64,000 bases of DNA, from NCBI GenBank assembly GCA_009784005.1, contig WRCE01000005.1, positions 1 through 64,000 on the forward strand, given 5' to 3'. Position numbers and translations under genes: made by a program. This DNA comes from Candidatus Methanimicrococcus labiotermitis (GTDB lineage: Archaea; Halobacteriota; Methanosarcinia; Methanosarcinales; Methanosarcinaceae). Of the stretch, positions 48,298 to 55,682 are shown in pieces. Numbering within the stretch: position 1 is the first letter of the stretch; every line of letters begins with the position of its first letter. The notes under the pieces were generated by a model. That model had not been told where the DNA came from, searched no databases, and saw only the letters and a list, made by a program, of their open reading frames with translations.

Positions 48298-50556
48298 TCA
48301 GCTTTTTTCGATGTGCGTCATATGTCTCGGTAAAACGGCGATTCCTTTTGATGATGAATTCATTTCAACGCCCGACATTTTCGCCTTCCCGATACCAATC
48401 GCGTTTTTCCCGAGAATGATGACTTCATCGCCGAATCGAATCGCCGGGTCTGCTTTTATAATTCCGGGCGCCATCAGCGACCCTTTGGGAAGAAAATCAT
48501 CAATCGTAACGGTGTATTGGCCGGAATAATCCGCCGATTTGATTAATTTCTCGGCGGCGGCAATTGAAAACGCCAATTGGCCGAACTGGGGAACCAAAAC
48601 GGCAAGCTGTGTTTTGCCGTCCAAAAGCATGAATTTCGGGAAATTGCCTTTGATTGTCGTTTCTTTCGTAAACAGCGAATCGGCAAGCGGGCCGAGCTGG
48701 TACCGCGCAATCGCTTTCGCTTGGTCCAACTTTTCGTCGTTTCCGCTTCTTTTCAACAATAAGGGACGCGGTTTGTGCACTCTTTCAACCGGACTTTCGG
48801 CCGGGGTCGGACTTTCTGTTGAGACCGGACTTTCTGTCAGAATGGGGATTTCTTTTGGAATGGAGGTTTCTTTTGGAATGGGGGTTTCTTTTGGCGTCGC
48901 TTCTTCAACGATTTTATCAACGGCCATTCTCAAATTTTTCAAACTTGTTTGGGACGCCGGACTCTTTTCAACCGTATACGTTATGGAAAGCCCCAGTCGC
49001 CCGGCGACGTCTTCACAAATTTCGCGGTACGCCCCGTCAACGTGGGCGATGATGTGTTTATACAGGTTTTTGTTTTTCAAAAGGTAAGTTTCGAGTAAAC
49101 CGCCAACCCATGCGCGCTCTTCCAAATCCCAGTGACCGGTGACGGTCGTATCGTAATGGGCGGCCGGATAAGTCAGTTCCAATTCTCTCGGGATGATGCC
49201 CATCGGCGACGTGATGATCAATTCATTGACGTACCTGCGGTTTCTTTCAATGGATTGAATGAACCTTTGATGCGACGCCGATATCGAATACGGTTTTTTG
49301 GATGAACACGGGAAAATGACCAATATTTCTTTTTTCGGCGGTTCATAATTTTCAACAATCCGCCGCGCAAAACGCTGAATTTCCGCGCGATTCTGTGACT
49401 CCGACGTTGTGGCGTAAATCGTGTTTCGGCGAAATGCCGGCGCCATGATTTCGGCGATTTGGCTTCTGTCAAACAATCGAATCAATCCCGTCAGCCACGT
49501 TCGCGTCCGGCACTGTCCTTCAACATATTCGCGCAAAGCCCCTCTTCGAATCTTTTCGCGAACCAAAGACATTTCAGCCTCAAGCGCGGCAATATTGTGC
49601 TCACGAAGCAGGCGGCTTTTGTCAGCGGCCGGCATCCCTCTTAAATCCGCCGCCGTTTTTCCAAAGCAAGCGGCGCACCGGCAAGGCAATTCCGTCATGT
49701 CTTCCAAGAAAAACGTGCCGGCGGCAGTCATATATTTGCCGGAAAAAGCGGCGATTTCCGCGCGCGTTGTGTCAAGCAAGTCGGCGCCGAGATAAATCAA
49801 AACGGCAACGTTTTCGGGCGTCGCCAAGTTCGGCAGCCAAAGCGCCGAATCCGCCGGCAGCCGTTCTTTAACATTTCGGAAAGCTTCAAAGAAACCGATA
49901 GCGTCATCATCAAACGTGCCGGCGCTTTCCATGATGTAAACGTCGCAGCCGGTTTTTTCAGCGGCAAACTCATTTTCGGCGGTAAAATCATCAGAGGCAG
50001 ACTCATCAGAGACAAACTCGTTTTCGCCGGCAAACTCGTTTTCGTCAACAAACTCATTTTCACCGGCAAAATCGGGTTGATGTGAATTGATTTCGGTTTC
50101 TGATACACCTGACGTTTCGCCACAAACGCACGCCGGCTCAGGCTTTTTAGAATACCGAATCGGGCGAATCATGGCGGCTGTCGGGCGTTTTCTGACGAGT
50201 TCCGCCGCCAACGTTTGTTCAAAGATTTTACGCCGGCGCTTTTCATTTTCTTCTTCGGAATAGGTCAGCGTGAATTGGTTTCTCGGTAAAATTAAAAGCT
50301 GCCCGTCTCCCGATTTTTGAATCTTTTCAAGAAAAACGGCCGCGTTTCTGTCGTCATCCGTTCCGCTGTTCCAAAGCGTTCCGAGATTTTTGACAAGATA
50401 AGAATCATCGGCGGCGGTTTTCGCTGAATCGATTAAAAAGGGCGTTTGGATAAAAGGAAAAGGCGCCGCTTCTTTTTTGGCGCCGTTTGAATAAATGTAA
50501 AGTTTTCCGATACGAGCAGGACCGTCTCGTTCATCGATTTCAAAGAATTTAGTCAT
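48298..50556 (-). CDS. arcS: Archaeosine synthase subunit alpha / TgtA2-like protein with PUA domain
   Basis: FFEIDERDGPARIGKLYIYSNGAKKEAAPFPFIQTP; VIFPCSSKKPYSISASHQRF; ITSPMGIIPRELELTYPAAHYDTTVTGHWD; C-terminal PUA-like region. Confidence 0.88.
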   Translation of the reverse strand: MTKFFEIDERDGPARIGKLYIYSNGAKKEAAPFPFIQTPFLIDSAKTAADDSYLVKNLGTLWNSGTDDDRNAAVFLEKIQKSGDGQLLILPRNQFTLTYSEEENEKRRRKIFEQTLAAELVRKRPTAAMIRPIRYSKKPEPACVCGETSGVSETEINSHQPDFAGENEFVDENEFAGENEFVSDESASDDFTAENEFAAEKTGCDVYIMESAGTFDDDAIGFFEAFRNVKERLPADSALWLPNLATPENVAVLIYLGADLLDTTRAEIAAFSGKYMTAAGTFFLEDMTELPCRCAACFGKTAADLRGMPAADKSRLLREHNIAALEAEMSLVREKIRRGALREYVEGQCRTRTWLTGLIRLFDRSQIAEIMAPAFRRNTIYATTSESQNRAEIQRFARRIVENYEPPKKEILVIFPCSSKKPYSISASHQRFIQSIERNRRYVNELIITSPMGIIPRELELTYPAAHYDTTVTGHWDLEERAWVGGLLETYLLKNKNLYKHIIAHVDGAYREICEDVAGRLGLSITYTVEKSPASQTSLKNLRMAVDKIVEEATPKETPIPKETSIPKEIPILTESPVSTESPTPAESPVERVHKPRPLLLKRSGNDEKLDQAKAIARYQLGPLADSLFTKETTIKGNFPKFMLLDGKTQLAVLVPQFGQLAFSIAAAEKLIKSADYSGQYTVTIDDFLPKGSLMAPGIIKADPAIRFGDEVIILGKNAIGIGKAKMSGVEMNSSSKGIAVLPRHMTHIEKS

Positions 50557-50637: not shown

Positions 50638-50654
50638 TCTTGTAAACTATTTAT

Positions 50655-51116
50655 ATGAGCGGCACAAATTTATATCTCATGCCTGAATTTGGTAATCCTT
50701 TCGCCGGCCTGAAAAACGGCCGTAAGCTGACGCATGAAGAACTTGTCCGCGCCATTCGTTTTATGGTTTCCGCCGAGTATGAAGCGATTCAGCTGTATGA
50801 ACAGCTTGCAGAATCCACCGACAACAAACTTGCAAAAGAAGTATTGCTCGACATCGCCGATGAAGAAAAAATCCACGCGGGCGAATTCCTCCGCTTGCTT
50901 CACGAACTTCAGCCGGATGAAGAGAAATTCTACAAAGAAGGCGCCGAAGAAGTCGAAGAAGAAATCGTCAAGATGGCAAAACCGGCGGCAAAAGCAGCGG
51001 CAAAACCGGCAGCAAAAGCGGCGGCAAAACCGGCAGCAAAAGCAGCGGCAAAACCTGCGCCGAAAACCGCCAAAAAAGCGGCGAAAACGCCTGCCAAAGC
51101 GCCTGCAAAAAAATAA
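50655..51116 (+). CDS. Ferritin-like (rubrerythrin/encapsulated-ferritin-type) protein with Ala/Lys/Pro-rich C-terminal tail
   Basis: KLTHEELVRAIRFMVSAEYEAIQLYEQLAESTDNKLAKEVLLDIADEEKIHAGEFLRLLHEL (E...ExxH di-iron motif); tail AAKPAAKAAAKPAAKAAAKPAPKTAKKAAKTPAKAPAKK; alternative start 50679. Confidence 0.85.
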   Translation: MSGTNLYLMPEFGNPFAGLKNGRKLTHEELVRAIRFMVSAEYEAIQLYEQLAESTDNKLAKEVLLDIADEEKIHAGEFLRLLHELQPDEEKFYKEGAEEVEEEIVKMAKPAAKAAAKPAAKAAAKPAAKAAAKPAPKTAKKAAKTPAKAPAKK

Positions 51117-51216: not shown

Positions 51217-52926
51217 TCAGTTGTCATTTTTAATGAGTAGAGACTTCCCTGTCATTTCCGCCGGAATTTCCATATTCATTATTTCCAAAAGAGTCGGCGC
51301 GATGTCACATAATTTTCCGCCGTCTCTTAACCGTTTGACCGTCTTTTTCGTTGCCGGGTCACTATTTGTACTGTCGGCGTAAATCATTTTGACGGGATTT
51401 GTCGTATGCGACGTGCACGGCTCGCCGTTATTTTCTTCCATCTGTTCGGCGTTGCCGTGGTCCGCCGTCACAATCAGCGCGCCGCCTTTTTCAAAAACCT
51501 TTTCGGCCAGTCTGCCGGCGCAGGCATCCACCGCTTCGGCGGCCGCGATTGCCGCGTTAAAGATGCCGGTGTGGCCGACCATGTCCATATTGGCAAAATT
51601 GAGAACGATGAAATCATATTTGCCTTCGTCGATTTTTTGCAGCAGCGCATCCGTCACTTCAAACGCGCTCATTTCCGGTTTTAAATCATAAGTCGCCACT
51701 TTCGGGGACGGGATTAAGATGCGGTCTTCGCCGCCGTTCGGCTCTTCGACGCCGCCGTTGAAAAAGAACGTCACGTGAGCGTATTTCTCTGTCTCGGCGA
51801 TTCGAAGCTGTGTTTTGCCGTTTGCCGCCAAATACGCGCCGATCGTGTTTTTCAAATCTTTCGGCGGATAAGCGGTCGGGATTGTCAGCTCTTCATCGTA
51901 TTGCGTCAAACAGACAAAATGAACGGCAGGACGCGCCTTTCTCTTGAATCCGACTTTTTCATCGGGTTCAGTCAAAGCGTAAGTCAGCTGACGGGCGCGG
52001 TCCGGCCGGAAATTAAAGAAGATGACGGAGTCGCCGTCTTCAATGGCGGCAACTCTCTTACCGGCATTGGCATTCTCGGCGCTTGTCAGAATAATCGGCT
52101 TGACGAATTCATCGGTTTCGCCTCTGTCAAAGGAATTTTGAAGCTCTTTTTTCCATGAATTAGCTGTCGAACCGGTCATCGAACAGGTCGTCGAATCGAC
52201 AAACGTGAAGTCCGGCCCTTCCGGTTTTTCAAGGGTCAAAGCGTCATACGCTTTTTCCGTCCTGTCCCAGCGCTTGTCGCGGTCCATCGCGTAATAGCGG
52301 CCGATAATGGAAGCGAGTTTGCCGACGCCCTCTTTTTCCATAAATTCTGAAAGGTCGGTCAGGTCATTCATCGCGGATTTCGGCGGCACGTCGCGCCCGT
52401 CTGAAAATGCGTGAACATAGACGCGCTCTAAGCCCTCTCGTTTTGAAAACGTCAGCAGCGCTTTCAAATGAGTCATATAACTGTGAACGCCGCCGTAAGA
52501 AACAAGTCCCATCAAATGAAGCGATTTGCCGCGTTCTTTGGCGTTTGAAACGGCTTTCAATAAAACGGGATTTTTGAAAAACGCCCCCTCTTCAATCTCT
52601 TTATTAATCAGCGTCAAGTCTTGGTAAACAACGCGGCCGGCGCCGATGTTCAAGTGCCCGACTTCGGAATTGCCCATTTGCCCGTCGGGAAGGCCCACCG
52701 CTTGCCCTGATGTCAGCAAAAGGGTATTCGGATAATCCTTCATCAAACGGTCCAGATTCGGCGTGTTTGCCGCGGCGACCGCATTCCCTATAGTTTCGGC
52801 GCTGTATCCCCAGCCGTCTAAAATCATCAATAAAAGAGGCTTTTTCAGAGAATTGGCGGGAGGGACGGGAGGGGTGGGAGGGGTGAGAGGGGCGGGATGA
52901 GAATTTGTTTTCTCGAATTCATTCAT
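51217..52926 (-). CDS. gpmI: 2,3-bisphosphoglycerate-independent phosphoglycerate mutase
   Basis: [74 protein letters not shown]. Confidence 0.97.
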
Positions 52927-53033: not shown

Positions 53034-55682
53034 TTATTTTTTGTAATCCGCTTCCACCACGCTGCGGATTCGTTGAGCCGTTATTTTGCCGATGCCTTTC
53101 ACCCGGCACAATTCCTCTTCGCTGGCATTAAAAATATTATTCAGCGAACCGAATTCGTTTAAAAGAAGCTGCGCGGAGTGAGGCCCGACGCCCGAAATCG
53201 AAGACAAAATGTACTCCTGCTGCTCGCTTGTCGTTTTGGCGGGCTTTTTGCCGTGAGGATTAACGGATTTCTTCTCGGCGACCTGCTCTTTCTTTGCCAT
53301 CATTTTCAAAAGAAGGGCCGTTTCTTCTTCATCTTTCGTATAAAAAACGGAAACGTTTAGATCGAGTTCAATCGAAAGCAAAGCGCCTCTGATTGAATTT
53401 TGATTCATCGGCCCCGCGGCGGCGGCGTCATCCATGCCTTCAATGATTAAAACCGGCTTTTTGTAAGCGCGCGAGAGGTCTATCAGCTGAGAAAACAAAT
53501 TCCGCTTGCCGCCAATCAATGAAGCGGTAAAGTCGGCGGCCGTTTTTCTTTCAATCGCCATGTCGTCGCTGACAACGTAATCGGCGACATCCAGCTTTGC
53601 GGTTTTCAAAAGAATCCCCTGCGCTTCCAAATGGCGCATAATGCCGCTTTTGATTTCACGGGTATCGGCGAGGATTCTCAAAGCCGGTTCTTTCAAAGGC
53701 TCTTTAAGGGGCTCTTTAAGGGGCTCTTTCAAAGGCTCTTTCGTATCTTCGGCGCCCGGATCGTCCGCCCCGAAATTTTCAGAAAAAACATGACTGCGAA
53801 CGGGAGGCGTATTCGAAATAGGGAAGTCGGCGGCGGAAACATCCATTGGTTCCTCGCATTCTGCCATAATTTCGGGAACGCTTTCAATTTCGGGAACACT
53901 TTCAATTTCGGGAACACTTTCAATTTCGGGAACACTTTCTGTTTCGGGAACACTTTCTGTTTCGGCAGGAAGCGTTTCGGATCGGGCGTATGCATATTTT
54001 TCTTTGAATTCACGTTCAAAATCCGCGAAATCCTTAAAATCCTTAATATCTGAAAAATCCTTATCTGTAAAATCCGCAAAATCCGTGAAATCCGAAAATG
54101 CCTTTTGGCCGCCGGATGCGTTGTCAACCGATTCGTTCTGAAATGTTTTCTTCAGATTTTCCATCTCGGAAAGCATCCGTTTCTCTTTATTTTGACTGCT
54201 CCAGCGGTAGGCTTCATCGCGCGTCCCCTTCGTCACCAGCACAATAACGCGGCCGGTCCGGAAACGGCCCGTTCGCCCTTTTCTTTGAATGCTTCGAATT
54301 TCCGAAGGCACCGGCTCATAGAACAGAACCAAATCGGTTGCGGGTATGTCCAGTCCTTCCTCGGCAACGGATGTCGCGATGAGCACATTATAGACGCCGG
54401 CGCGAAACTGCTCGATGATTTCCGTTTGCTGCTTTTGCGTCAGGCCCTTGTCTTTATTGCGCGACCCCTGGCCGACAAAACGAACGGGGCGGACATCGGG
54501 CACTTCCGCCAAAGCTTCCTTGACAATATTTGCGGTTTCCCTGAAATTTGTAAAAACAATTATTTTGGAATCGGGAGACGCTGCAAGCCGGTTGCTGACA
54601 ATATGCTGAACGGCACGGAATTTCGGATGTTCCGCCTCACATTTCTCCGTCAGGTGGAAAGCCTGCCGGAAATGAAGGTCGGCAGCAATCCTTTTGACCG
54701 CCTTGCTGGCGCCGGATGTGCCGGCTTCTTCCTCCATTTTCTTCAAATAAGCCAAAAGCGGCTTAGCGCCTTGTGTTTCAATCAACTCGATGCCGTGTCC
54801 GATTTTCATGATTTCGGCCAACACGGAAACAGCGGAATAAATGCCGGCATCTGCATCCCCCTGACGCATTTGAGCCGTCAGGCTTGATTGTAGGGCCAAA
54901 AAATCCCGTTTGGACAGATACTTGCCGGCCAGCGGATAACCGTATTCGGCAAGTTTGTTCAGCCGTTCATCCAATATTTTCTGAAGCGGGTCGCGGATGT
55001 CCGCCAACTCTTTCGGGAGCGGCAATGACATCCATTCGATTTCCTTCTTATGAATATATGGTTTGATATCCGCGTCCTCTTCTGTTTTGACGACAATGTT
55101 TCCGATGGAAAGGGCGCGGCAAACTTCATCAATCGTTTCTTTTTCGCTGCCCGGGCTTGCCGTAATTCCCAAAATCAACGGATTATCGGCGGTTGCCATG
55201 TATTTTTCGGCAACGTAAGTGTAAGCGTAATTGCCGACAGAGCGGTGCGCCTCATCAAAAACAATACATGACACATCCTTTAAGAAGAGGCGCCCGTTGA
55301 TTAAATCATTTTCAATAACTTGAGGCGTTGCGATAATGACGGAAGAGTCACCCCACAAGTCTTGGCGTTTATCGGGCGTAATACCGCCCATAAAGACCCG
55401 AACGTTGCCGGCTTCCGGTTTCAAAACACGGGAAAAAAAATTAAAATGTTGTTCGACCAGCGGTTTGGTCGGCGACAGCAGCAAAACCTTGCCGCCGATT
55501 TTTTCCAGGCGCATGACCATAATCAAAAGCGCGACAACCGTTTTCCCGAGAGACGTCGGAAGAACGACAAGAGAATTCTTCTTGGTGCAACCGGAAACAA
55601 TATTAAGCTGATAAAGGCGCTGCTCAACCGCGCCTTCAAAAATCAGAGGATGCTTAATGAATTGTTTGGATTCTGACGCCAT
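53034..55682 (-). CDS. hef: Hef-type archaeal helicase/ERCC4 nuclease
   Basis: SLGKTVVALLIM, FDEAHRSVGNYAY, ATSVAEEGLDIPATDLVLFYEPVPSEIRSIQRKGRTGR; RILADTREIKSG...IERKTAADFTASLIGGKRNLFSQL ERCC4; C-terminal HhH. Confidence 0.96.
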   Translation of the reverse strand: MASESKQFIKHPLIFEGAVEQRLYQLNIVSGCTKKNSLVVLPTSLGKTVVALLIMVMRLEKIGGKVLLLSPTKPLVEQHFNFFSRVLKPEAGNVRVFMGGITPDKRQDLWGDSSVIIATPQVIENDLINGRLFLKDVSCIVFDEAHRSVGNYAYTYVAEKYMATADNPLILGITASPGSEKETIDEVCRALSIGNIVVKTEEDADIKPYIHKKEIEWMSLPLPKELADIRDPLQKILDERLNKLAEYGYPLAGKYLSKRDFLALQSSLTAQMRQGDADAGIYSAVSVLAEIMKIGHGIELIETQGAKPLLAYLKKMEEEAGTSGASKAVKRIAADLHFRQAFHLTEKCEAEHPKFRAVQHIVSNRLAASPDSKIIVFTNFRETANIVKEALAEVPDVRPVRFVGQGSRNKDKGLTQKQQTEIIEQFRAGVYNVLIATSVAEEGLDIPATDLVLFYEPVPSEIRSIQRKGRTGRFRTGRVIVLVTKGTRDEAYRWSSQNKEKRMLSEMENLKKTFQNESVDNASGGQKAFSDFTDFADFTDKDFSDIKDFKDFADFEREFKEKYAYARSETLPAETESVPETESVPEIESVPEIESVPEIESVPEIMAECEEPMDVSAADFPISNTPPVRSHVFSENFGADDPGAEDTKEPLKEPLKEPLKEPLKEPALRILADTREIKSGIMRHLEAQGILLKTAKLDVADYVVSDDMAIERKTAADFTASLIGGKRNLFSQLIDLSRAYKKPVLIIEGMDDAAAAGPMNQNSIRGALLSIELDLNVSVFYTKDEEETALLLKMMAKKEQVAEKKSVNPHGKKPAKTTSEQQEYILSSISGVGPHSAQLLLNEFGSLNNIFNASEEELCRVKGIGKITAQRIRSVVEADYKK

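Follow-up and report, generated by a model that had tools for sequence, protein, structure and literature searches.

EncFtn ferritins are known from Pyrococcus furiosus, Myxococcus (EncB/EncC), and Rhodospirillum (Rru_A0973). Their diiron EXXH site and conserved tyrosine have been reviewed alongside the s-FLPs, which are short ferritin-like proteins without a targeting peptide (e.g., NE0167, PDB 3k6c) that were first classed as non-encapsulated (PMC11202242). Dps belongs to the same ferritin superfamily and binds DNA mostly through disordered tails, a flexible tail serving this purpose in most studied homologs (PMC13319912). M. xanthus EncC alone shows no DNA binding (PMC9321382). Tails of the KPAA type are found on AlgP and PhaF of Pseudomonas: KPAA-repeat peptides and a tail fragment of AlgP bind DNA, the tail of PhaF is proposed to anchor granules on the nucleoid, and AlgP localizes to polyphosphate granules (PMC9239181).

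The ferritin described here, from the archaeon Candidatus Methanimicrococcus labiotermitis, resembles the EncFtn proteins in domain, predicted fold, and ferroxidase residues, but no shell gene was found in its genome, and the protein has neither a targeting peptide nor a fusion to a shell, carrying a long polycation tail instead. It shares with the s-FLPs an EncFtn-type domain that lacks a targeting peptide; s-FLPs, however, end shortly past the last helix, whereas the ferritins of this genus extend by 31-65 Ala/Lys/Pro residues. Unlike Dps, a four-helix dodecamer with its own Dps site, it belongs to another family, with a short subunit of two long helices and a C-terminal helix, an inter-subunit diiron site, and a DNA-binding ability that is putative. 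The tail is similar to those of AlgP and PhaF in composition, repeat type, and repeat-driven length variation (PMC9239181), although the latter sit on unrelated N-terminal domains and not on a ferritin or a biosynthetic enzyme such as IlvE. The chlamydial H1-like protein Hc2 (PF07382) is likewise Lys/Ala-rich but is a whole chromatin protein rather than the tail of an enzyme.

The analyzed stretch of DNA (the window) comprises 64,000 nucleotides, and its features around the ferritin gene are:

48298..50556, minus strand: ArcS, archaeosine synthase subunit alpha (NCBIfam tRNA_mod_ArcS, 610 bits); not part of the ferritin system
50648..50655, plus strand: conserved element resembling a TATA box, here TATTTATA, which lies 24-31 nt upstream of the start codon in the six genus loci
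50655..50678, plus strand: in-frame ATG plus 8 codons, probably untranslated, the ATG overlapping the TATA-like box
50679..51116, plus strand: most likely coding sequence of the ferritin (145 aa, MPEFGNPF...PAKK, stop included)
50679..50966, plus strand: EncFtn/EncB-family ferritin-like core of 96 aa, with residues E33, Y40, and E63xxH66
50967..51113, plus strand: disordered Ala/Lys/Pro tail of 49 aa (15 Lys, no Asp/Glu, net +15)
50975..51069, plus strand: tandem repeat of 12/24 bp within the tail, GGCAAAACCGGCAGCAAAAGCAGC (Tandem Repeats Finder)
51217..52926, minus strand: 2,3-bisphosphoglycerate-independent phosphoglycerate mutase (TIGR01307, 705 bits); not part of the ferritin system

The relatives from the same genus that were found by sequence are Methanimicrococcus, M. 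blatticola DSM 13328 among them, and a whole-genome search finds the ferritin gene as a single copy in each of the six genomes. ArcS orthologs adjoin it in the five other loci as well. The first-pass annotation had placed the gene at 50655-51116. This ORF (plus strand, 153 codons) is real and its coordinates stand, but its start codon probably does not: the gene most likely begins at the second ATG, 50679, on account of the starts of its relatives and of the TATA-like box that lies where the first ATG sits. Ferritin relatives across many phyla begin with MPEFG or MPDFG (MPEFGNPF or similar), and an A+T-rich box precedes the second ATG by about 24-31 nt in all six genus genomes, reading TATTTATA in five and TATATATA in one. 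In the window genome this box overlaps the first ATG (50655), and none of the five other genus sequences has an in-frame ATG at that place. The spacing between box and ATG suggests a leaderless archaeal transcript.

The likeness of the N-terminal domain to encapsulin-fused ferritins, proposed from the letters, is borne out by profile and structure searches. The protein matches NCBIfam EncB_fam (NF058679) with 99.8 bits against a cut-off of 90, scores 83.3 bits with TIGR04535 (below its cut-off of 125), and exceeds the Pfam cut-off for Rubrerythrin but not for EncFtn-like. PF00210 (Ferritin/Dps family) is not among its Pfam matches; this profile matches other genes in the genus, which thus also encodes a classical ferritin-family protein. 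The best solved relative is the encapsulin-fused ferritin domain of P. furiosus (5n5e, E 1e-15), with M. xanthus EncC also among the best. The predicted model has a mean pLDDT of 77, with core blocks at about 83-98, and its core fold matches 5n5e, 7s8t, and 7s5c (Foldseek; 5n5e, TM by target 0.80, E 2e-5; 7s8t, TM 0.80), lying nearer to 5n5e and EncC than to 3k6c. Residues E33, Y40, E63, and H66 are invariant across 44 sequences; their counterparts in EncFtn are the conserved tyrosine and the residues of the diiron EXXH site (PMC11202242). Family, predicted fold, and conserved residues together suggest a decamer with ferroxidase activity. The core carries a net charge of -13, so that the whole protein with its tail reaches only +2.

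The tail is a long disordered KPAA/H1-like region that is poor in acidic and hydrophobic residues, and the histone-H1-like composition first read from the sequence holds throughout the genus. All six members are tailed, with lengths of 31, 49, 61, 62, 63, and 65 residues, an A/K/P fraction of 0.69-0.92, 10-19 Lys/Arg, 0-3 Asp/Glu, and a net charge of +9 to +19; the end is always a basic pair, KK or RK. Length thus varies twofold, down to a tail of 31 aa and +9. Among 75 relatives from outside the genus, no tail of this kind occurs. In the model, residues 81-115 form a helix that continues into the tail as confidence drops, disorder is predicted beyond about residue 117, and most of residues 117-141 have a pLDDT below 50. 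The tail is, as had been noticed, a tandem repeat, here at the DNA level (24-bp unit, 3.4 copies, 94% match). The tail DNA of the window genome reaches a best self-shift identity of 0.70, followed by M. blatticola at 0.65 and the four remaining species at 0.48-0.56. Because DNA repeats are weak in four of six species and yet the A/K/P composition persists, while the ArcS linkers come and go, the pattern favors selection on tail composition. These low-complexity ArcS repeat linkers are long in the window genome and partial in one relative; the other genus members lack them or have short ones.

That no encapsulin lies nearby is correct for the whole assembly to which the window belongs (93% complete): a full-genome search for a shell gene finds no Linocin_M18 match above cut-off. 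The same is true of all six genus genomes (PF04454; completeness 57-93%), although controls matched. A missed nearby encapsulin was considered and rejected, the sole weak match, on contig C10, being interrupted by three stops. Encapsulin is present in eight of 40 relatives' genomes searched. In all eight, the ferritin tail has 19-35 residues and the shell gene, the recurrent close downstream gene in exactly these loci, follows at 54-129 bp; a targeting motif stands near the tail end in seven (GLGIGSLK, GLGIGGIK, or VTVGSL), while the ferritin of locus L039 ends in GLGLQDK. In the remaining 32, the ferritin ends 1-11 residues past the core and the genome has no shell gene. Most of the 40 genomes are drafts, in which single absences mean little and the clean 8/32 split means more. 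Among the genomes tested, targeting tail and shell gene therefore occur jointly or not at all, and the stand-alone state is the usual one in this EncFtn/EncB subfamily; the unusual feature of the genus ferritin is the tail. In contrast to most of the shell-linked relatives, none of the six genus tails has a C-terminal targeting peptide (such as GLGIGSLK) or shell fusion. A dedicated operon partner was also considered and rejected, because relatives without a targeting peptide share no close neighbor in many loci.

EncFtn-type ferritins of 72-88% identity occur in numerous phyla of both bacteria and archaea, in most cases with no encapsulin (loci L036-L111). Most Methanosarcinaceae relatives have a different ferritin-like gene, 40-50% identical and often present as a tandem pair, and encapsulin is found in four of 61 genomes of these relatives. 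Many Methanosarcinaceae carry two tandem EncFtn-like genes, mostly with no encapsulin in the genome (loci L009-L031). A tree built from 105 cores joins the genus members in a single, weakly supported group (83/20), which is remote from the other ferritins of the family and stands, again weakly, beside a shell-linked, mostly spirochaete clade (85/75). Such a placement may reflect uptake of the gene from a gut bacterium and a later exchange of the tail, for which the core is too short to give certainty.

Tails of this kind extend beyond the ferritin. The genome of the window has 58 DNA sites encoding KPAAK against 10 for the reversed control, and these cluster in three genes: this ferritin, the branched-chain aminotransferase IlvE, whose tail has 297 aa, and a protein that has a membrane helix at its C-terminus. 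The genome was searched whole and read in the stretches of interest, which makes this a partial census of A/K/P tails. KPAAK sites in other members of the family amount to a handful at most and are scattered. The additional tailed proteins are:

L148:2945-4705, minus strand (genome G000, contig C21): IlvE with an A/K/P tail that exceeds the enzyme itself in length
L173, L178, L179, L180, L181: IlvE tails in other genus genomes
L147:2794-3648 (plus strand), L172:1619-2509 (minus strand), L175:1936-2832 (plus strand): A/K/P-domain protein with a C-terminal membrane helix
L171:1975-3171 (plus strand), L177:866-2122 (minus strand): HEPN_Swt1 protein whose N-terminus bears an A/K/P stretch (two genus genomes)

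In six of six genus genomes, IlvE ends in an A/K/P tail of 20-297 aa. The membrane-anchored protein was read in three; its copy in M. blatticola gives a weak match to chlamydial Hc2 (PF07382; 31.7 bits, below the cut-off of 40), and the protein might tether the membrane to the nucleoid. Where pattern matches cluster in the genus genomes, they fall in proteins read in the A/K/P frame at nearly all places examined. The A/K/P tail is thus a trait of the genus and not specific to the ferritin. Since IlvE, for which DNA protection makes no sense, has a similar tail throughout, the tail is not a dedicated device for bringing the ferritin to DNA.

The six genus genomes give no match to the archaeal histone profile PF00808, which is found in 23 of 24 relatives, while the DNA-binding protein MC1 is kept in all six. 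This is a single event in one genus, so that histone loss and tails jointly prove nothing alone, and no claim that the former caused the latter is possible. One small-genome relative (G014) has no PF00808 match, yet lacks such A/K/P arrays. Polyphosphate kinase (PF02503) is encoded in five of six genus genomes; the genome of the window, 93% complete, gives no match.

The reading put forward, tentatively and as close to evenly balanced, is a free decameric ferroxidase that is tethered to nucleoid DNA by its KPAA-type polycation tail and is Dps-like by convergence. By homology, ten subunits of the free-standing EncFtn/EncB ferroxidase would assemble into a ring, whose paired glutamates and histidine would bind and oxidize ferrous iron. 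A disordered tail of +15 on each subunit, in place of a shell targeting peptide, would give the ring about 150 positive charges on flexible arms. These arms would keep it on DNA through electrostatic attraction, whatever the sequence, such that Fe(II) and oxidants would be removed near the chromosome. By analogy with the KPAA-tailed AlgP and PhaF, the ferritin would be expected to bind DNA, for which the tail would be needed because EncC alone does not (PMC9321382), and presumably to protect it. Of the two roles suggested in the first-pass annotation, the DNA-protecting, Dps-like one is plausible, with no ortholog in the genus lacking the tail, but weakened as a ferritin-specific idea by the similar tails on a metabolic enzyme (IlvE, 6/6) and other proteins, and that of a cargo-targeted ferritin is contradicted by a tail without an encapsulin targeting peptide in a genus with no shell gene found. 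What survives of the latter, namely that a missed or divergent encapsulin takes the tail as an unusual targeting sequence, draws on the weak placement beside the shell-linked clade (85/75) and on the extended tails (19-35 aa) of shell-linked relatives. It is close to refuted, given the working PF04454 controls, the absence of a targeting motif, and an opposite-strand phosphoglycerate mutase where all eight shell-linked relatives have their shell gene. Several points also count against tethering: the charge of the tail could be largely spent on the acidic core (net -13), tail length varies twofold and falls to 31 aa and +9 in one species, and the genus has both a classical ferritin-family protein and MC1.

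Some of the same facts would suit a lineage habit, in which A/K/P extensions grow by repeat slippage and are tolerated or aid charge balance or solubility, the ferritin being a plain cytosolic ferroxidase and the tailed proteins having no common partner. Similar tails on IlvE, the membrane-anchored protein, and the HEPN protein, the highly variable tail length (20-297 aa on IlvE), the abundance of tandem repeats, also within ArcS and Hef, and the near offset of core -13 by tail +15 are all consistent with it. This explanation is nevertheless somewhat unlikely, as the composition is far from neutral: A/K/P with few or no acidic residues persists in six of six species though the DNA repeats have mostly decayed, the ArcS linkers are not kept between species, and the clustered matches are read in the A/K/P frame almost everywhere examined. 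Alternatively, the tail may bind another polyanion (polyphosphate, RNA/ribosomes, or acidic membrane lipids) and place the ferroxidase where iron is stored with phosphate. AlgP on its polyphosphate granules (PMC9239181), PF02503 in most of the genus, and the stretches on an RNA-linked HEPN protein and a membrane-anchored protein speak for this. It is unlikely all the same, because PF02503 is unmatched in this very genome and direct DNA binding has been reported for KPAA peptides (PMC9239181). Also unlikely, as a reading of the whole set, is a tail-based system that would gather ferroxidase, IlvE, membrane-anchored, and HEPN proteins on the nucleoid or another polyanion in a histone-less genus of gut methanogens; the ex-encapsulin-type ferritin would then have converged on Dps, with its tail in the place that holds the shell address in shell-linked relatives.

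The openly accessible journal literature yielded no description of tails of this kind in Methanimicrococcus, and genome papers on the genus do not mention ferritin or histone. Encapsulin ferritins appear separable from their shells, as one subfamily in many phyla lives mostly without one. In one archaeal genus, the position of the tail is taken by a histone-H1-like polycation, which would let a shell cargo or a free ferroxidase become DNA-bound in a simple way. The IlvE tail and the loss of histones in the genus pose a clear question about the role of such tails in cells, and the main interest lies in the genus-wide set of polycation tails rather than in the ferritin alone.

Tandem Repeats Finder reports 113 tandem-repeat rows in the 64-kb window. 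Repeat-expanded, partly acidic linkers lie inside ArcS and Hef (48813-48894, 49955-50070, 53689-53742, and 53868-53965).
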